A stretch of 64,000 nucleotides of DNA, taken from the NCBI GenBank assembly GCA_017405805.1, contig JAFQZU010000005.1, positions 184,308 to 248,307 of the forward strand. The letters are read 5' to 3'. This DNA is from Lachnospiraceae bacterium. GTDB taxonomy: Bacteria; Bacillota; Clostridia; Lachnospirales; Lachnospiraceae. The notes beneath the pieces were generated by a model that saw only the letters and a list, made by a program, of their open reading frames with translations, searched no databases and was not told the DNA's origin. Shown piece by piece: positions 7,659-48,535 of this stretch (position 1 is its first letter; each line of letters starts with the position of its first letter). The translations under genes and the position numbers were made by a program.

Positions 7659-7712
7659 GAAAACCGGTTTTTGAAAAGAATTGACAGCCGGTGCGCGAAA
7701 GGTAGTTACGAT

Positions 7713-9503
7713 ATGGCTTTTGACGGAATTACAACGGCCTGTCTCGTCCGCGAATTGTCGGACAGACTGACAGGCGGAAGAATCTATAAGATCGCACAGA
7801 CAGACAAAGACGAGCTCACGATTACCATCAAGCCCGCGGCCGAGCGGGGCGGCGGACAGGTGCGGCTCTATCTCTGTGCGGACCCCTCTCTCCCGCTCGC
7901 TTATCTGACGGAAGTTTCCCGCAAAGCGCCTCTGCAGGCGCCTTCCTTCTGCATGCTCCTGCGCAAGCACCTGCAGAACGGACGCATCATTTCCGTCACC
8001 CAGCCCGGTCTCGAGCGGATCATCCGGATCGAGGCGGAGCACATGGACGAGATGGGAGACCTGAAAAAACACATCCTGGCAGTCGAGCTGATGGGCAAAC
8101 ACAGCAACATCATCTTTATGAACAAAGAGGGGGTGATCACGAACAGCATCAAGCACATCTCCTCCCTGGTCAGTTCCGTGCGGGAAGTGCTGCCCGGAAG
8201 GCCCTATTTTATTCCCGATACGCAGAATAAGCGGGATCCGCTCCGCGAGGACAGGGAGCGCTTTCTCGCCCTGGTCGGCAGTGCCCAAACGGACACTGCA
8301 AAGCTGCTGGTGCGCACCTATACGGGTCTTTCGCCGCAGATCGCCGAGGAGCTCTGCGACCGCGCGGGCCTGACCCACGACAGGAGCGCCTCCTCCATAC
8401 CAGCGGAAGAGGCTGAAAGGCTCTGGCTTTCTTTTGACGGACTTATGCGCGGGATCGAACAGGGAGACTACTCTCCCACCCTTTACTATAAAAAGACGGC
8501 AGAGGGAAGACGCGGCGCGCCTGCCGCATACGCGGCGGTCCCTCTTACGATCTACGCGGATCACGAAGCCGTATCCTTCGCCTCCATGTCGGAACTCCTG
8601 GAGACCTTCTACGCCCAGAAAAACGCAGACACCAGGATCCGGCAGAAATCGGCCGATCTGCGCCGCATCGTGCAGACGATCCTGGAGCGCGATATCCACA
8701 AGTACGATCTTCAGTGCAGACAGCTGAAGGACACGGAGAAGCGGGACAAGTTCAAGCTGTACGGCGAACTGCTCAACACCTATTCCTACTCCATCCCCTC
8801 CGGCGCAAAAAGCTGCGAGGTGGAGAATTATTATAACGGGGAGACCGTCCGGATCACGCTCGATCCCACGCTCACGCCCTCGCAGAACGCCGTTCGCTAC
8901 TATGACCGCTACACAAAGCTCAAGAGGACCGCTGAGGCGCTGGAAAGCCTGACTGTCCAGGTCAAGGAGGAGATCGATCATCTGGAGAGTATCCGCACGG
9001 CCCTCTCCCTCTCCACTTCCGAGGGCGATCTGGCCCAGATCCGGCAGGAGCTGGAGCAGACGGGCCTGGTCCGGAAGCACACGTCCGGAAAGGGCAAAAA
9101 AGGGAGCCGGATCCCGATCAGCAAACCGCTCCACTACGTCAGTTCGGACGGATATGATCTCTATGTCGGCAAGAACAACCTGCAGAACGATGAGCTGACT
9201 TTCCGCTTTTCGGCGCCTTCCGACATCTGGTTTCACGCCAAGGATATCGCCGGGTCCCATGTCATCCTCTGTGCCAGAGGACAGAAGATGAACGATATCC
9301 CGGACAGAGTCTTTGAGGATGCCGCTTCCCTCGCGGCCTGGTATTCCGCCGGCCGCAGCCAGGAAAAGGTGGAGGTCAGTTATCTGGAGCGCAGGGGCGT
9401 AAAAAAACCGGGCGGCGCCCGTCCCGGTTTTGTCATCTATCACTCCAACTATTCCATTACGGCCAGGACGGATATCTCCGGCCTCAAGGAGATCTCTTCC
9501 TGA
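7713..9503 (+). CDS. rqcH: Ribosome quality control protein RqcH (NFACT, Rqc2 homologue)
   Basis: 596 residues. NFACT proteins bind split 60S/50S ribosomes carrying stalled peptidyl-tRNA and add C-terminal alanine tails; older annotations call them fibronectin-binding proteins. Seen: N-terminal NFACT-N starting MAFDGITTACLVREL, the EIMGKHSNII-like stretch (VELMGKHSNIIF), a central helical/coiled region (~290-460), and a C-terminal NFACT-R domain (SDIWFHAKDIAGSHVIL). The upstream in-frame ATG at 7671 lacks a ribosome site, so ATG 7713 is used. Divergent from yicC. Confidence 0.93.
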   Translation: MAFDGITTACLVRELSDRLTGGRIYKIAQTDKDELTITIKPAAERGGGQVRLYLCADPSLPLAYLTEVSRKAPLQAPSFCMLLRKHLQNGRIISVTQPGLERIIRIEAEHMDEMGDLKKHILAVELMGKHSNIIFMNKEGVITNSIKHISSLVSSVREVLPGRPYFIPDTQNKRDPLREDRERFLALVGSAQTDTAKLLVRTYTGLSPQIAEELCDRAGLTHDRSASSIPAEEAERLWLSFDGLMRGIEQGDYSPTLYYKKTAEGRRGAPAAYAAVPLTIYADHEAVSFASMSELLETFYAQKNADTRIRQKSADLRRIVQTILERDIHKYDLQCRQLKDTEKRDKFKLYGELLNTYSYSIPSGAKSCEVENYYNGETVRITLDPTLTPSQNAVRYYDRYTKLKRTAEALESLTVQVKEEIDHLESIRTALSLSTSEGDLAQIRQELEQTGLVRKHTSGKGKKGSRIPISKPLHYVSSDGYDLYVGKNNLQNDELTFRFSAPSDIWFHAKDIAGSHVILCARGQKMNDIPDRVFEDAASLAAWYSAGRSQEKVEVSYLERRGVKKPGGARPGFVIYHSNYSITARTDISGLKEISS

Positions 9504-36044: not shown

Positions 36045-37238
36045 TTAATTATGTGTCAGTAAACAGACGGTTTCGACCCCTTCGGTATAAGGAAACATAT
36101 CCACCGGAACCGCCTTTTTCATCTGATATCCGTTTTGTGTAAGATACTCCAGGTCTCTGGCCAGCGTCACCGGTTCGCAGGACACATACACCACTTTGGA
36201 AGGGCCGAGTTTTGTCAGTGACTGCAGGAACTGCTGCGACGCCCCGCTTCTGGGCGGGTCCAGAAAGACGATGTCCATCTTCTCGCCGTCCTCCGCCAGC
36301 TCCTCCATAAACTCTCCCGCGTCGCTCTCGGCCACCTGTACATTGGAAGCGCCGTTCATCTGCGCGTTGTGGGCGGCGTCGCGGACCGCTTCGGGATTGA
36401 GCTCCGCGCAGATCACCTCTCTGCAGCGGTCCGATGCGATGATCCCGATGGTCCCGATCCCGCAGTAGGCGTCGAGAATGCGCTCTTTCCCGGAAAAACC
36501 GGCCAGATCCAGCGCAATATTGTAGAGCTTCTCCGTCTGCAGGCTGTTTACCTGATAGAAAGAGCGGCTGGAGATGCGGAACCGTTTCCCGCACAGGACG
36601 TCCTCGATGTATCCGGGACCGTAGAGGACCTTTTCCCTCTGTCCCAGCACCATAGTCGTATCCTTATCGTTGATATTCATCACGACCGTCGTGATCTCCG
36701 GATGGCGCTCCGTAAGCTCCTTGATAAACGCTGTGCCGCGCGGCAGTACGGGGTCCGTCGTCACCAGCGTCACCATCACCTGCCTCGTGGCACGCGCCGC
36801 GCGCACCTGTACATAGCGCAGAAATCCGCTCCCGGTCTCCTCGTCGTAAGCCTTGATCCGGTAGTTCGGAAGCATACGCAGGACAGTTTGGATGATCCGG
36901 TCGGCGCGGGTGTCCTCCAGCAGGCATTTTTTGACTGGGATCACCTCGTGCGTTCCCCTGCGGTAGATCCCGCACACCGCGCCCTGGCGCCTGTCCCTGG
37001 CAAAGACGGAGGTCACCTTGCCTCTGTAGTGGTCGGGATTCTTCATTTTGATGATGGGATCGACCGGGCCGTACCCGCCAATCAGCTCCTGTACATGGGC
37101 CTGCTTGGCAAGGAGCTGTTCATCATAAGGCACGTCGATCATCGTGCAGCCGCCGCAGCGGTTCGATACGGGGCACCTGCTGCGCTTTTTTTCTTTCGTT
37201 TCCTTTTTGCCGGTATTATCGCGAAATTGTCTCTTCAA
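36045..37238 (-). CDS. 23S rRNA (uracil-5)-methyltransferase, RlmD/RlmCD type
   Basis: 397 residues, TrmA/RumA family. Fe-S cluster Cys motif CPVSNRCGGC near residue 22 with a further Cys at VKKC; SAM-binding DAYCGIGTIGI; FLDPPRSGAS; and catalytic Cys in VYVSCEPVTLARD. It methylates a uracil at C5 in 23S rRNA, but which site cannot be told. The usual N-terminal TRAM domain is missing, as in many short clostridial members. Confidence 0.88.
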   Translation of the reverse strand: MKRQFRDNTGKKETKEKKRSRCPVSNRCGGCTMIDVPYDEQLLAKQAHVQELIGGYGPVDPIIKMKNPDHYRGKVTSVFARDRRQGAVCGIYRRGTHEVIPVKKCLLEDTRADRIIQTVLRMLPNYRIKAYDEETGSGFLRYVQVRAARATRQVMVTLVTTDPVLPRGTAFIKELTERHPEITTVVMNINDKDTTMVLGQREKVLYGPGYIEDVLCGKRFRISSRSFYQVNSLQTEKLYNIALDLAGFSGKERILDAYCGIGTIGIIASDRCREVICAELNPEAVRDAAHNAQMNGASNVQVAESDAGEFMEELAEDGEKMDIVFLDPPRSGASQQFLQSLTKLGPSKVVYVSCEPVTLARDLEYLTQNGYQMKKAVPVDMFPYTEGVETVCLLTHN

Positions 37239-37260
37239 GGCTTCTAAGATCCTCTCTCAC

Positions 37261-37296
37261 ACAAAACCCGGTTCCGATAACAGCTCGGAACCGGGT
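37261..37296 (-). terminator. Terminator after the superoxide reductase gene
   Basis: Perfect 12-bp stem (37266-37277 with 37285-37296) followed by TTTTG on the minus strand. It ends only ~25 bp before the rlmD-type start, so the methyltransferase may rely on partial read-through. Confidence 0.75.
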
Positions 37297-37334
37297 ACAC
37301 ACACTATCCCGCAGGCTGTGCGGCCTGTTTGGTA

Positions 37335-37709
37335 TTACAGTTCAGCTTTCCAGAGTCCGTGCAGGTTGCAGTACTCCCATACGGCAACGGGATCGGAAGC
37401 CTCAAATACAGCGCAAGGAGCCTCGCCGGGCTTCAGGACCTTGAACTGGCCGCCGTCCTTGGTCTGCAGATAGATCCACTGGATAAAGTGCTCCTCCGCC
37501 ATGGGATGCTCGACGGAGCCGACCTGGACCGTGATCTTGCTTCCTTCGACCTTGACGTCCGGAACGTGCTTTTCCTTGGCGCCGTCCGTGGTATTGCCTT
37601 TGAGCTCTGTCATGAGCTCTCCACAGCAGGAAGGAGGACATCCCTTCTCATTGAGTTTCACAACGATACTACCGCACTTTTTGCAGCGGAAAAATTTCAG
37701 TTCTGCCAT
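37335..37709 (-). CDS. Desulfoferrodoxin (superoxide reductase)
   Basis: 124 residues. Reduces superoxide to peroxide in anaerobes. The N-terminal desulforedoxin-type Fe(Cys)4 site is complete (Cys9, Cys12, Cys28, Cys29) and the catalytic Fe(His)4Cys site is visible (His48, His68, His74, Cys114, His117, with the Glu46-Lys47 pair before the first His). ATG 37709 has AGGAG upstream. Supports an obligately anaerobic host. Confidence 0.94.
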   Translation of the reverse strand: MAELKFFRCKKCGSIVVKLNEKGCPPSCCGELMTELKGNTTDGAKEKHVPDVKVEGSKITVQVGSVEHPMAEEHFIQWIYLQTKDGGQFKVLKPGEAPCAVFEASDPVAVWEYCNLHGLWKAEL

Positions 37710-37800
37710 ATTATAAACTCTCCTTTCTGTCACAAGGACAATTGTTTCCTGTTCCATTTTATTCTAATGCATCCTGCCGGAAAAAGGAAGAGATATTCCG

Positions 37801-40548
37801 TCAACCTTCAGTCGACAGGCCCTTTCTGAGTGCCTCCCTCTCCTCTTCGCTCATATGGTCCAGGAGGCCTCTGCGGGCGCCCCCGCCCTGTTCCGTGTAG
37901 TGTTCCGTCATGCTCTCCTTTGTGCGCAGGATCTCCTCCAGCAGGTTCCTGGCGGACATGCGGAGGGCCCCCGTCCCGAAGATGATGACCTGCTCCACCG
38001 AATCCGAAGTGGCCACGGTGACCGTGTATTTGCGGCTCAGTTCATGGGCTGCCTTTTCGATATACAGATCCGCCGTCTCCGCCTCTTTGGTATACACCAC
38101 GTCGATCCCGCTGACGTGCTGGATCTCGCCTCTTCCGCCCCGCACCTTGTATGCGTCAAAAACAAGGATCAGGTGCTCCCTTCTGAACCCGGCAAAATCC
38201 GCCAGGATCTCGATCAGCCTGTCCCTTGCCGCCATGATATCGGTCTGGGCCAGCTCCCGCAGATCCTCCCACGCGAAAATAATGTTGTACCCGTCCACGA
38301 GAAGATAGGATTTTTCCGGCACGGGCTGCGGTTTTTTATTTTTTGCGCTGTCTGAACCGCCGGAGGAAGGCCGCCTTTTCCTGGACTGGACGCTCTCGTC
38401 CATGGCGCTGCGGTCCCGGATGGGCCCGTAGGTCCTCTCGAAGATCCTTCTCAGCTCATCCTCCGCCATGGAGATGGCCCGCTCGCGCTCCGCAAAGGTC
38501 TGCGGTTCTTTTCTCTCGCGCCTGCCGGCCGCCAGCGCCGCCTGCCGCATCATCTCTTCCTCGGGGTCTTCTTCCTCCTCGTCCGGCGCGCTCCAGCTGC
38601 TCTCCTGGTGCATGTATTCTTTCACCTCGTACCAGGGAATGATCGTACCGACGCCGTGGGAACAGAAGACTGATGCGGACGGATTGCGCAGGTCCGCCTC
38701 CGGATCGTAGCCGGAAGCCTCAACGACTCTCTCCGCGTCGGCGCAGGGCGCATACCCTTCCAGAGAACAGGTCAGCTGTCCCTCTCCCCTGGAGTATGCC
38801 GTCAGTGTCTCGATATAATCGCCGATCGCGGAGACCGGTGCGCTTCCTTCGATCACGGCGCTGTTCCCCTCCAGGTCCGGCTGGGAGAATTTGGCCCCCA
38901 TCCGCTGCAGATCCGTGAGGGCTCTGCCCACGCAGTCCTGCGGGAGAGCCATGCGGAAGCGGTAGAAGGGCTCCAGGAGCACGTTCTGCGCAAACATCAG
39001 GCCCTGCCGCACAGCCCTGTAAGTCGCCTGCCTGAAATCGCCGCCCTCCGTGTGTTTCTCATGGGCCTTTCCCGACAAAAGCGTGATCCTGATATCCGTG
39101 ATCGGAGAACCGGTCAGTACGCCTCTGTGCACCTTCTCCTCCAGATGCGTCATGATCAGCCGCTGCCAGCTCGCCGCAAGGATATCGGTCCTGCAGCGGT
39201 TTTCCAGAACGATCCCGCTGCCCGGTCCGCCCGGCTCGAGAAGCAGGTGCACCTCGGCGTAGTGCCGCAGCGGTTCAAAGTGCCCCACGCCCTCCACGGG
39301 CGCCGCAATGGTCTCCTTATATACGATGGAAGGCCTGCCGAACCGGATCTGGAGTCCGAACCGCTCCCGTATGACCCGCTGCAGGATCTCCCGCTGGACC
39401 TGTCCCATGACCTGCATGGTGATCTCCCGCTTCTCCTCATCGTAGTCCACGCCGAGCATGGGATCCTCCTCCTGCAGGACGAGGAGCTGCCTGTAAGCCT
39501 TGTAGAGATCCTCTCCGGGAGGGAGCTCCAGCGCACACCGCAGGACCGGCTGCAGGAGTTCTCCGCCGACGCTGTGTTCTATTCCGAGCCCGTCTCCGGC
39601 GCGTGTCCCGGTGAGCCCCGTGACGGCGCACACTTCACCCGCGCTCACTTCCTGCACCGCCTCGAACCGCTCGCCGCTGTACAGACGGATCTGCTCGATC
39701 TTCTGGGGATTTCCCTTCTCATCGGGACTGTCTTCCACGGGTGTCTTCACTTTGAGCGATCCCCCCGTGATCTTCATCCAGGTAAGTCTCGCCCCCGCCC
39801 GGTCCCTGGTGATCTTAAAGATCCTTGCGCCAAAATCCTCCCCGTACGAAGGCGGCTCCACGAAGGTATCCAGCACCTCGAGGAGGGATCCGACCCCCAT
39901 CTCGCGCAGCGCCGATCCAAACAGGACCGGGAATGCCTTTCTCTCCCTGATCAGGGAAGCGGCCTGCTCTCTCGTGACGGGTTCCCCCTCCAGATAGCGG
40001 TTCATGAGATGCTCGTCGCAGACTGCCAGATCCTCCTGCAGACCCTCATTGTCCCAATCGCGGCTCCAGTCGACGCATCCGCTGCCCAGTTCTTCTCTGA
40101 TCTGTGAAAGAAGGGTCTGCCTGTCAGCGCCCTGCTGGTCCATCTTATTGACGAAGATCACGGCCGGCACGCCGTAGTGATCCAGGAGCCGCCACAGCAC
40201 CCGCACCTGCCCGTTCACGCCGTCCGCCGCGCTGATCACGAGGACCGCTGCGTCCAGAACACCGAGCACGCGCTCCATCTCCGTGGAGAAGTCCGCATGT
40301 CCCGGCGTGTCAAGCAGCGTATAGGTCCTGCGAAGGCCGCCCCGCTCCGAAACAATCCTCGCCTGCTTCGAAAAAATAGTGATCCCCCTCTCCCGCTCCA
40401 TCTCGTCCGTGTCGAGAAAAGCGTCGCCGTGATCCACCCGGCCGGCCGTGCGGATCGCGCCGGTGCTGTGCAGAAGCGCTTCCGACAGGGTCGTTTTGCC
40501 GGCGTCCACATGTGCGAGGATCCCCAGTATAAAGTTCTGCTGTTTCAT
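37801..40548 (-). CDS. TetM/EF-G-like translational GTPase fused to a NYN (Rae1/YacP-type) RNase domain
   Basis: 915 residues. Residues 1-~660 follow the EF-G/ribosomal-protection layout: G1 in AHVDAGKTT (12-20), RERGITIF switch I, DTPGHADF, NKMDQQ, then domains II to V. An acidic/basic linker (~665-740) leads to residues 746-~880, which match YacP/Rae1: YLLVDGYNIIFAWE, LILVFDAYKVRGG, ETADLYIEKAAHEL, TVATSDSVEQ, with the conserved acidic residues kept. Rae1 of B. subtilis cuts mRNA in the ribosomal A site; EF-G-like factors bind near the A site. So this protein probably acts on ribosomes. No typical ribosome site precedes ATG 40548; a hairpin lies in the leader. Naming it tetracycline resistance is not justified. 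Confidence 0.85.
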   Translation of the reverse strand: MKQQNFILGILAHVDAGKTTLSEALLHSTGAIRTAGRVDHGDAFLDTDEMERERGITIFSKQARIVSERGGLRRTYTLLDTPGHADFSTEMERVLGVLDAAVLVISAADGVNGQVRVLWRLLDHYGVPAVIFVNKMDQQGADRQTLLSQIREELGSGCVDWSRDWDNEGLQEDLAVCDEHLMNRYLEGEPVTREQAASLIRERKAFPVLFGSALREMGVGSLLEVLDTFVEPPSYGEDFGARIFKITRDRAGARLTWMKITGGSLKVKTPVEDSPDEKGNPQKIEQIRLYSGERFEAVQEVSAGEVCAVTGLTGTRAGDGLGIEHSVGGELLQPVLRCALELPPGEDLYKAYRQLLVLQEEDPMLGVDYDEEKREITMQVMGQVQREILQRVIRERFGLQIRFGRPSIVYKETIAAPVEGVGHFEPLRHYAEVHLLLEPGGPGSGIVLENRCRTDILAASWQRLIMTHLEEKVHRGVLTGSPITDIRITLLSGKAHEKHTEGGDFRQATYRAVRQGLMFAQNVLLEPFYRFRMALPQDCVGRALTDLQRMGAKFSQPDLEGNSAVIEGSAPVSAIGDYIETLTAYSRGEGQLTCSLEGYAPCADAERVVEASGYDPEADLRNPSASVFCSHGVGTIIPWYEVKEYMHQESSWSAPDEEEEDPEEEMMRQAALAAGRRERKEPQTFAERERAISMAEDELRRIFERTYGPIRDRSAMDESVQSRKRRPSSGGSDSAKNKKPQPVPEKSYLLVDGYNIIFAWEDLRELAQTDIMAARDRLIEILADFAGFRREHLILVFDAYKVRGGRGEIQHVSGIDVVYTKEAETADLYIEKAAHELSRKYTVTVATSDSVEQVIIFGTGALRMSARNLLEEILRTKESMTEHYTEQGGGARRGLLDHMSEEEREALRKGLSTEG

Positions 40549-40563
40549 CTATTTACACCGATC

Positions 40564-40592
40564 CGCCGGCATTGAATTTCAGACTGCCGGCG
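40564..40592. promoter_or_regulatory. Hairpin in the leader of the GTPase-NYN gene
   Basis: Perfect 8-bp GC-rich stem (40564-40571 with 40585-40592), 15 bp upstream of ATG 40548 and downstream of the likely minus-strand promoter region. With no clear Shine-Dalgarno site after it, it could influence translation. Confidence 0.45.
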
Positions 40593-40612
40593 TTCTTTCC
40601 TGTTTTTCAGGC

Positions 40613-40640
40613 TTGTTTTGCCTGTAAAATAGATTATACT
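40613..40640 (+). promoter_or_regulatory. Probable promoter of purC, overlapping a divergent -10
   Basis: TTGTTT (40613-40618), 16 bp, TATACT (40635-40640) on the plus strand. The same bases contain TATAAT on the minus strand, so divergent promoters may compete here. I see no purine riboswitch. Confidence 0.45.
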
Positions 40641-40684
40641 ATAAAGATGCAATATCTTCGAATACTATGAAGGAGGAATGACAT

Positions 40685-41554
40685 ATGCAGGAGTACACCC
40701 CGGTAAAAGAAGGAAAAGTACGCGAGATCTACGACATCGGCGATCAGCTCATCATGGCGGCGACCGACAGGATCTCCGCTTTTGACGTAATCCTGAAAAA
40801 TAAGATCAGCGGCAAGGGAAAGGTCCTCACGCAGATGTCCCGTTTCTGGTTTGACCTGACAAAGGACATCATTCCCAATCACATGATCAGTGTAGACGTT
40901 AACGACATGCCGGAGTTCTTCCGCCAGGAGCGTTTTGACGGCAGCAGCATGCTCTGCCGCAAGCTGACCATGCTCCCCATCGAATGCATCGTCCGCGGCT
41001 ATATCACGGGCAGCGGCTGGGAGAGCTATACAAAGAACGGCACCGTCTGCGGCATCACCCTGCCCGCCGGCCTCAAGGAATGCGACAAGCTTCCCGAGCC
41101 CATCTATACCCCCAGCACCAAGGCCGAGATCGGCGACCACGATGAGAACATCAGCTTTGAGAAGAGCGTGGAAGTCCTCGAGAAAGCCTTCCCCGGCCAC
41201 GGCGAGGAGTACGCGAAGACCATCCGCGACTGCACCATCGCCCTGTACAAAAAGTGCGCCGATTACGCCCGTGAGCGCGGCATCATCATCGCGGACACCA
41301 AGTTTGAGTTCGGTCTCGACGAGAACGGAAACGTCGTCCTCGGCGACGAGATGCTCACCCCCGACAGCAGCCGCTTCTGGCCCGTCGAGGGATACGAGCC
41401 CGGACACGGCCAGCCCTCTTTCGACAAGCAGTTCGTGCGCGACTGGCTCAAGGCCAACCCCGACAGCGACTATCTCCTTCCCCAGGACGTGATCGATAAG
41501 ACCATTGCCAAATACGAAGAGGCTTATTACCTTCTGACCGGCAGCAAACTTTGA
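40685..41554 (+). CDS. purC: Phosphoribosylaminoimidazole-succinocarboxamide synthase (SAICAR synthetase)
   Basis: 289 residues, the longer SAICAR-synthetase type. Joins aspartate to CAIR in purine synthesis. Seen: KVREIYDIGDQLIMAATDRISAFD, LPIECIVRGYITGSGW, STKAEIGDHDENIS, DTKFEFG and DEMLTPDSSRFWP. AGGAGG lies before ATG 40685. Its 3' end, including the stop codon, is part of a threefold 17-bp tandem repeat. No other pur genes adjoin it. Confidence 0.95.
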   Translation: MQEYTPVKEGKVREIYDIGDQLIMAATDRISAFDVILKNKISGKGKVLTQMSRFWFDLTKDIIPNHMISVDVNDMPEFFRQERFDGSSMLCRKLTMLPIECIVRGYITGSGWESYTKNGTVCGITLPAGLKECDKLPEPIYTPSTKAEIGDHDENISFEKSVEVLEKAFPGHGEEYAKTIRDCTIALYKKCADYARERGIIIADTKFEFGLDENGNVVLGDEMLTPDSSRFWPVEGYEPGHGQPSFDKQFVRDWLKANPDSDYLLPQDVIDKTIAKYEEAYYLLTGSKL

Positions 41555-46720: not shown

Positions 46721-48535
46721 ATGAAGGCCCCTTCCCGCGACAAAAAAATACTTTTCCCGCTCATGGTCCTCGTGCTCGCAGCCGCCGTCGCCGTGATCCT
46801 TCTCGCAAAAAGAAGGACCGGTACGGACGCCTGCCGGATCGACGAAGCGCCCGCTTTTATGGACGTCACGGAACTGGTCCTGGACAATGCGGAGGGACTT
46901 GCCGTATGCAGCTGCGGCATGTATGACGGCAATACGCTCCTGATCCTGCTGGCAGATCCGGAGAAGGAAGTCTGTCACGCAAGGCTCCTTGACCTTGAGA
47001 AAGGCCGCCTTCGCGATCTTCTGACTTTTCCCTTCCCGGGAGGAAGCACGGAAAACATCCGTATCCTCTCTGCCGATCCGCTGATCATAAGCGACGACGC
47101 CCAGGGGATCGTGTACCGCCCGCAAACGGACGCAGCCCCCTTCCGGGTCCCCTGTAATGATGAATACCCGCCGGAAACGGTGAGCGCCTGCGGCGCGCTC
47201 TATCTGTTCTCTCCCGCGGGGATCCTCTCCCGGTGCGGGGACGATGGTTCCGTCACCGAGATATGGCGTCTGCCGCGGCAGTGCAGCTGGCTCACGCAAG
47301 TGGCAGATCCCGACGATGGAAGTCTTTTGTTTTCCACCTATCCGGAGGACAGGCCGGACATGCAGATCTTTGCGCAGGTCGATCCCGAATCCGGCGAAGC
47401 CGCTTATTTTACATACGAGGGGGAAGATCTTTATTTCGGAGCCGGGTCGGACGGGAAACTGTGCGCCATCCGGTCGGATCCCGACCCGGTACTGACCGTA
47501 TGGGATACCGCAGCAGGTATACTGACTGAGTATGAACTGCCGCAGGCCATCAGACCGGATCCGTCCCGCAGCCTTATGCTGGCGCCGCAGCCGGCAGCTG
47601 GACACTACTGCTGTTTTGCCCTCTGCGATGAGAAAGGAAGGCCGGAAAGGATCTGCCTGTGCGATCTCTCTGACGAGCGGTGCGGACAAAGGACTGCCCG
47701 TGCCGTGCCGGAAAAGATTCCCTATGTTTTCCCGCACGCGGATTACGGGGACCTGTCAGCCCGCGCAGAAGCGATCTATGAAAAATACGGGGTGCACGTG
47801 GTCCTCGGGACTGACGTCCCCGCTGTTTTTCCCGATTATAGCGTCCAGACAGAGGACAATTACTATGTCATGGAGAACGGGCTGTCCACCCTTGAGAGCG
47901 CTCTCAGTCTCTACCCGGGGGACTATTTTCGCGCGCTCTGCGGCCTGTATTACCGGGATATTACCTTCTATCTGACCGGCCCTATGACGCCCCTGTATGC
48001 GGATCAGAATATCTCGGAGGCTGGTGCTTTTACCGTCGATCAGAACACCGTGGCGAAGGTCGCCCTCAATCTGCAGGCAGGCCTGTACCGCGGCATCATC
48101 CTGCATGAACTGACACATGTCACGGATTACGCCCTGCTAAAAAAAGACCTCCTGCGGGAGGAGGAGTGGAGCGCGATGAATCCATCGGGGTTTCAGTATT
48201 ATGATGCCTATATGGATGAAAACGGCAGCAGCTATGATACCGTCGGGGACCCGTCCTATACCGCCGCGGCGGAGGAGGATCCGGAACGGATCTATTTTTA
48301 CGACCGCTACAGCAAGACATTTGCCCTCGAGGACCGCGCCCAGCTCATGCAGGTCCTGATGCGGGATATGACCGGAACGGAGGGCAGCTATACCGCCTCC
48401 GCTCCGCCTGATCTCTGTCTGCAATCGTCTCACACACGCGCCAAAATGCGCTGGTACGCCGCTCTTATACGCGATGCCCTTGACACCGGCAGCTGGCCGC
48501 GGCGCACCTGCTGGGAAGCAGCCCTGGACCGGTGA
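46721..48535 (+). CDS. Membrane-anchored putative zinc metallopeptidase
   Basis: 604 residues. One N-terminal membrane segment (~11-29, ILFPLMVLVLAAAVAVILLA) places the rest outside. Residues ~45-330 consist of repeated strand-rich units ending in D/P-rich turns, possibly a beta-propeller. The C-terminal part has HELTH (His462, Glu463, His466) in an IILHELTHVTDYAL context typical of zincin proteases. I do not recognise a named family. Convergent with the histidine kinase gene; stops abut at 48535/48536. Confidence 0.7.
   Translation: MKAPSRDKKILFPLMVLVLAAAVAVILLAKRRTGTDACRIDEAPAFMDVTELVLDNAEGLAVCSCGMYDGNTLLILLADPEKEVCHARLLDLEKGRLRDLLTFPFPGGSTENIRILSADPLIISDDAQGIVYRPQTDAAPFRVPCNDEYPPETVSACGALYLFSPAGILSRCGDDGSVTEIWRLPRQCSWLTQVADPDDGSLLFSTYPEDRPDMQIFAQVDPESGEAAYFTYEGEDLYFGAGSDGKLCAIRSDPDPVLTVWDTAAGILTEYELPQAIRPDPSRSLMLAPQPAAGHYCCFALCDEKGRPERICLCDLSDERCGQRTARAVPEKIPYVFPHADYGDLSARAEAIYEKYGVHVVLGTDVPAVFPDYSVQTEDNYYVMENGLSTLESALSLYPGDYFRALCGLYYRDITFYLTGPMTPLYADQNISEAGAFTVDQNTVAKVALNLQAGLYRGIILHELTHVTDYALLKKDLLREEEWSAMNPSGFQYYDAYMDENGSSYDTVGDPSYTAAAEEDPERIYFYDRYSKTFALEDRAQLMQVLMRDMTGTEGSYTASAPPDLCLQSSHTRAKMRWYAALIRDALDTGSWPRRTCWEAALDR

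Follow-up and report, generated by a model that had tools for sequence, protein, structure and literature searches.

A Rae1-type NYN nuclease joined to a translational GTPase in place of the free-standing enzyme in Clostridia

The fusion gene and its surroundings

The window, by which we mean the whole 64,000-nucleotide stretch of Lachnospiraceae DNA that was analysed, carries on its minus strand, at 37801-40548, an ORF with an ATG start, 915 codons plus a stop and zero internal stops, whose product joins a Tet-like translational GTPase to a C-terminal domain of the NYN_YacP (Rae1) type. The features of the gene, with the corresponding residues of its product and the evidence for each, are the following.

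37801..40548, minus strand: the fusion gene, Tet-like translational GTPase plus NYN_YacP (Rae1-type) nuclease (915 aa ORF, Pfam, alignment with 79 full-length relatives)
39856..40530, minus strand: GTPase G domain, residues 7-231 (Pfam GTP_EFTU, 3.5e-51; G1 AHVDAGKTT, RGITI, G3 DTPGH, G4 NKMD)
39586..39834, minus strand: EF-G domain II, residues 239-321 (Pfam EF-G_D2, 1.2e-06)
39337..39552, minus strand: EF-G domain III, residues 333-404 (Pfam EFG_III, 1.3e-08)
38989..39333, minus strand: EF-G domain IV, residues 406-520 (Pfam EFG_IV, 1.3e-18)
39031..39072, minus strand: domain IV loop GKAHEKHTEGGDFR, residues 493-506 (alignment; Tet(M/W/O)-type proteins have YYSPVSTPADFR there)
38737..38982, minus strand: EF-G domain V, residues 523-604 (Pfam EFG_C, 4.9e-15)
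38605..38736, minus strand: GTPase C-terminal extension (NP..SVFC.HG..W..V..YMH), residues 605-648 (alignments of fused and unfused relatives)
38308..38604, minus strand: linker of variable length, residues 649-747 (alignment; low model confidence)
38428..38457, minus strand: short conserved helix ELRRIFERTY in the linker, residues 698-707 (motif count and model)
37822..38304, minus strand: NYN_YacP nuclease domain with acidic residues D752, D798, D827 and D849, residues 749-909 (Pfam, 2.5e-49)

With the G1, G3 and G4 motifs and EF-G domains II to V all present and the catalytic residues kept, the N-terminal part is an EF2-class translational GTPase, and the description of an EF-G/TetM-like GTPase with intact motifs, given in an earlier note on this DNA, proved accurate. 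In a fold search, residues 3-641 of the predicted model aligned with TetM (3j9y); the part covered by at least one-fifth of the rows was model residues 1-626, the NYN half lying outside. The same note had assigned the C-terminal domain to the YacP/Rae1 type with its acidic residues retained; a profile search of this region agrees, placing residues 749-909 in NYN_YacP at 167.9 bits against a gathering cut-off of 24.6, and all four aspartates align with the solved YacP of B. subtilis (5mq8/5mq9, 2e-26). This is the sole NYN_YacP match in the window's own draft genome, which is 84% complete.

The linker between the two halves ranges from 103 to 168 aa between alignment columns 620 and 748 (80 rows). 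Its pLDDT in the predicted model is mostly below 60, and the model has a helix at 685-707; a motif of the ELRRIFERTY type, counted with a pattern written after the consensus had been seen, occurs in 97 of the 149 rows, whereas shuffled linkers gave a mean of 0.08. A comparison of the linker with solved structures gave zero matches at E 1. In the C-terminal extension of the GTPase, Cys/His residues at 602, 629, 631 and 647 (~38608-38745) are kept in most fusions and may form a metal site; unfused relatives are not strictly conserved there.

Elsewhere in the window, the plus-strand ORF at 7671-9503 encodes RqcH, as the earlier note had it (NFACT_N at ~7722-9104, 474.5 bits), and a 604-aa ORF at 46721-48535, also on the plus strand, has zero Pfam matches at 1e-5. 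A promoter scan of 37200-40750 gave zero sigma-70-type matches, and no RNA family in the window reached its gathering score.

Conservation of the join and placing of the GTPase

A contig scan for relatives gave 115 stretches, the best 80 of which were taken. At 79 of these 80 loci, which belong to other genomes, GTPase and nuclease are joined in the same way within a single best-matching ORF of 850-1019 aa; this excludes a local frameshift or assembly artefact and upholds the one continuous 915-codon frame reported earlier. At the remaining locus (L068, 1871-4531) the fusion lies in two frames of 504 and 379 aa, and this locus was excluded from the alignment of 79 full-length relatives. Conservation was read from 149 rows that represent 148 distinct fusions, the window gene entering also as locus L119. 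Gaps in two truncated rows aside, 11 G-motif and eight nuclease positions are unchanged in all 148: D80, G83, H84, N134, K135 and D137 of the GTPase and D752, N755 and D798 of the nuclease are invariant in 149 of 149 rows, the P-loop residues D15, G17, K18, T19 and T20 are invariant bar a gap at the truncated start of one row (L108), and T825, D827, T847, D849 and Q853 of the nuclease are invariant bar a gap in another (L179), where its locus ends; the four NYN aspartates are kept in every fused row except the one truncated at its locus end. Less strict positions are H13 (His in 137/149) and E501 (Glu in 133/149), the latter being the lowest of ten counted positions of the domain IV loop, which are kept in 133 to 149 of the 149 rows. 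Because catalytic and motif positions do not change across 148 fusions, purifying selection appears to act on both halves, and the fused arrangement is no chance join. A conserved operon partner was sought in the flanks, which are short at many loci, and no neighbour family recurred in more than 8 of the 79.

To which family of translational GTPases does the N-terminal half belong? Its best-scoring NCBIfam model is the tet_protect equivalog NF012153, but the 410.6 bits it attains lie below the cut-off of 775, which three class relatives pass (L213, L216 and L219, with 852.6, 892.4 and 1000.8 bits). Identity with EF-G was rejected as well, in view of a score of 292.2 bits against the EF-G equivalog TIGR00484 (cut-off 659.4) and of a separate EF-G in the same genome that scores 1116.6 bits. 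At the tip of domain IV, EF-G has SYHEVDSSEMAFK or similar, the GTPase family of the fusion has KAHEKHTEGGDFR, and Tet(M/W/O)-type rows carry Ser-Pro-Val, at 508-510 in L213 and L125, in whose place the window fusion has the loop listed above. It is the whole Ser-Pro-Val that we take to be defining for Tet-type ribosomal protection proteins. In the accessible part of one source (PMC8161019), Pro509 of TetM is described as a residue in the tetracycline site, and Tet-type factors as binding a site that overlaps those of EF-G and of the drug in the A site.

The same separation is seen in a GTPase tree of 79 sequences built by a quick method, where the 36 sampled fused halves form one clade (support 100) and fused and unfused members together form a clade (99) separate from Tet proteins and EF-G. 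As drawn, the tree nests the fused clade inside the unfused relatives, a nesting that the AU test does not uphold: the unfused rows as one clade are not rejected (p 0.62), that tree being 10.6 better, and our claim is therefore limited to a single origin of the fused clade. In an NYN tree of 65 sequences and 164 columns the free search needed two changes; with the fused rows held together the tree was 11.7 better, and one origin was not rejected (p-AU 0.70). The sequences are thus consistent with one fusion event for the 36 sampled fused GTPase halves. The window protein and that of L046 are neighbours in both the GTPase and the NYN tree (93 and 95), as expected if the two halves travel together.

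The accessible text of Atkinson 2015 (PMC4342817) reports a Tet-NYN fusion in ten Clostridiales species, classes it as Tet and suggests drug resistance. The window gene is very probably of the same kind, and the remark in the earlier note that such fusions are known only from automatic annotation has to be amended on this point, since at least the accessible part of that paper had them in print; it stands in that no functional study of the fusion was recognised in the literature searched, the main Rae1 papers, which may mention the fusion, lying outside that search. Could the protein nonetheless be, as proposed there, a tetracycline-protection protein to which an RNase has been added? That tet_protect is its best model would fit, as would the TetM/TetW/TetO/TetS family annotation on 12 of the 15 plasmid matches listed; we regard this reading as quite improbable, however, and membership of the Tet-protection family was rejected, given the score below a cut-off that class relatives exceed, the lack of Ser-Pro-Val and the separate clade. 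The GTPase is moreover present in 15 of the 15 order-set genomes of the window's own family, like a core gene (fused in 14 of them), one genome (G292) has the fusion alongside a true Tet(M/W/O)-family gene above its cut-off, and among 1022 plasmid records with a match only two, from Monoglobus pectinilyticus and Agathobacter rectalis, cover at least 80% of the query, the others among the 15 listed being mostly unfused relatives on plasmids of Ligilactobacillus salivarius. Drug-blocked ribosomes as the target, which the earlier note had proposed, lose their footing with a GTPase that is outside the Tet protection family and does not have the drug-site loop of TetM.

Fused and free-standing forms across genomes

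NYN_YacP was found in 123 of the 146 genomes of the order set: free-standing in 74, in frames of 170-272 aa; fused in 48, in frames of 857-983 aa, all 48 of which also match the GTPase profile; and in one (G039) in a frame of 523 aa whose class is unclear. Where a second NYN match turned up in a fused genome of this set, it was a fragment: one of 41 bits containing a stop in G050, and one of 27 bits in G021. In the class set, 189 of 291 genomes have NYN_YacP; ~105 of the 291 are fused by the GTPase profile, with contig-cut genes counted as fused, and a further 85 match NYN but show no long frame matching the GTPase family, frame lengths being known among the NYN matches listed (150). Fused genomes of the class set have a single NYN match each, bar four exceptions that were examined: in three the second match is below the cut-off, and the fourth (G274, 61% complete) carries two fused copies. 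An intact fusion together with an intact free-standing YacP was seen in 0 genomes of the order (146) and class (291) sets, with G360, whose GTPase and NYN matches lie on different contigs, unresolved. The fusion stands in for the free-standing nuclease, Rae1.

Among 249 genomes of the phylum set, the GTPase profile matches in 19 at E 1e-150, of which 16 are of fused length, two unfused and one of Tet-like length and score. In one genome (G195, C2:126183-128755) the GTPase and NYN matches adjoin in separate frames, possibly as a split gene. Two UNVERIFIED 'Bacteriophage sp.' records (L258, L259) contain the fusion. Seven of ten tested flanking frames in these records match Pfam and three match nothing at 1e-10; five of the families are ordinary chromosomal ones (prolyl- and Glx-tRNA synthetase, AddB, FeoB and an anion transporter) and the other two are PG_binding_1 and DUF6273. 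Because ordinary chromosomal families flank the fusion, the records look like mislabelled bacterial DNA, and phage carriage was rejected.

Relatives of the GTPase without the NYN domain, ~640-690 aa long, score 713-888 bits (order set) and 750-811 bits (class set) against the GTPase profile, full-length fusions 831-1065 bits (with two divergent ones, G146 at 802 and G368 at 693), Tet and Tet-like proteins 393-472 bits and EF-G 264-380 bits; two proteins are intermediate (G014, 597; G287, 544 bits). The relatives on L. salivarius plasmids are ~46-47% identical. On one such plasmid (L261, 3526-5917) the unfused GTPase gene lies beside, and is transcribed divergently from, a gene for S14 (rpsN) whose product is without cysteine; a search of 80 fused and 20 unfused loci found no rpsN beside the GTPase.

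A clear unfused GTPase is present in 25 genomes of the order and class sets, of which 18 have a free-standing YacP and seven have no YacP match. With G039 and G084 set aside in the order table, the two do not co-occur above chance (Fisher p 0.45 in the order set, 0.19 in the class set), so that functional coupling drawn from their co-occurrence was discarded. From these seven genomes and the lack of any co-occurrence excess, the GTPase seems to work without the nuclease, and the null result counts against a tight functional pairing of GTPase and YacP before the fusion. Perhaps, then, the fusion is no more than two independent ribosome factors in one chain, an ordinary Rae1 and a separate GTPase, EF-G-like or acting in quality control, with the join fixing only their ratio. 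These co-occurrence data favour such an arrangement, as do the 64 of 74 order genomes with a free-standing YacP that lack a clear unfused GTPase and the long, poorly resolved linker. We consider it possible, if on the unlikely side: against it, the join persists across divergent lineages with few splits seen (L068 and G195), the linker holds a conserved helix, and the nuclease tail is degenerate in most fusions.

The tail merits closer description. In free-standing YacP, Glu908 and Arg911 are found in 29 of 29 sequences and Arg912 in 26 of 29, a set that may look over-uniform because 21 of the 29 were the leading entries of a list sorted by score; the B. subtilis YacP alignment extends across that protein's tail, FEKLRR. 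Among the 149 fused rows, position 911 is Arg in 20 and Lys in 14, while 75 have a gap there. The basic tail of free-standing YacP is, by these alignments, degenerate in most fusions, some of which retain part of it, and this suggests that ribosome binding may now be provided by the GTPase.

A possible mode of action and comparison with known systems

We propose that the fusion is a clostridial form of Rae1 whose own GTPase would bring the nuclease to ribosomes, the mRNA being cut once the A site is free of the GTPase; both steps, delivery and cutting, are inferred, and we hold the proposal to be about evenly balanced between right and wrong. Delivery by the GTPase would fit both the exclusion of free-standing YacP and the degenerate tail. 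In its GTP form, the EF-G/Tet-like half would dock on ribosomes whose A site is empty or blocked, bringing the His/Lys-His-Thr-Glu loop of domain IV close to the decoding centre. Since the A site should not have room for domain IV and the nuclease at once, the two would have to act in turn: GTP hydrolysis would let domain IV exit, and the nuclease, on its linker of ~100 residues or more, could then enter the vacated A site and cut the mRNA, after which trans-translation or RqcH would clear the ribosome. SmpB is present in 141 of 146 order genomes; it was not found in the window's own genome (G000), probably owing to missing sequence in this 84%-complete draft. It is conceivable, more tentatively, that the protein is a GTP-gated one-chain mRNA endonuclease, in which the GTPase senses the stalled A site and hydrolysis lets the nuclease swing in, and that this form replaces free Rae1 in much of the gut Clostridia; this stronger version we regard as rather doubtful.

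Alternatively, the target may be structural RNA, with the NYN domain trimming rRNA or tRNA and the GTPase binding an immature or idle ribosome. A role of NYN domains in rRNA and tRNA maturation has been proposed (cited in PMC4342817) and LepA, an EF-G homologue, has been implicated in 30S assembly (PMC12787274), as far as the accessible parts of these sources go. A maturation factor is nevertheless unlikely, given that Rae1, the nearest studied enzyme, can attack mRNA within the ribosomal A site according to the accessible text of PMC12320835.

What would follow if the fusion is a clostridial Rae1 with a GTPase of its own? Widespread gut bacteria would couple mRNA cutting directly to a translation GTPase, and the fusion would offer a handle on how Rae1-type nucleases choose their ribosomes. 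Some proteins annotated as TetM, TetW, TetO or TetS would be ordinary translation factors, and such annotations could inflate resistance counts in gut metagenomes. Within the literature searched, what is new here is that the fusion replaces free Rae1, that a single origin can be claimed for it, how widely it occurs, and that it falls outside the Tet family.

In eukaryotes, a rescue GTPase is paired with a no-go-decay nuclease, and on the stronger, GTP-gated reading the fusion would be a bacterial one-piece counterpart. EF-G shares with the fusion the fold, the G motifs and a His at the same place of the domain IV loop. From Tet-type ribosomal protection proteins (TetM, TetO, TetW) the fusion differs in scoring below the curated cut-off, in having no Ser-Pro-Val loop, in its separate clade and in its nuclease. 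The unfused orthologues in Clostridia and on L. salivarius plasmids have the GTPase family and the C-terminal extension as in the fusion, but no nuclease. The Tet-NYN proteins of Atkinson 2015, as described in the accessible part of that paper, have the same architecture; they were placed there with Tet proteins and resistance, whereas here they form a clade of their own and a stand-in for Rae1. Rae1/YacP of B. subtilis, finally, shares the NYN_YacP domain with its four aspartates, as well as the motifs TAD and TSD..EQ, but is free-standing and ends in a basic tail; the nuclease of the fusion instead makes up the C-terminal portion of a 915-aa GTPase and has a degenerate tail.
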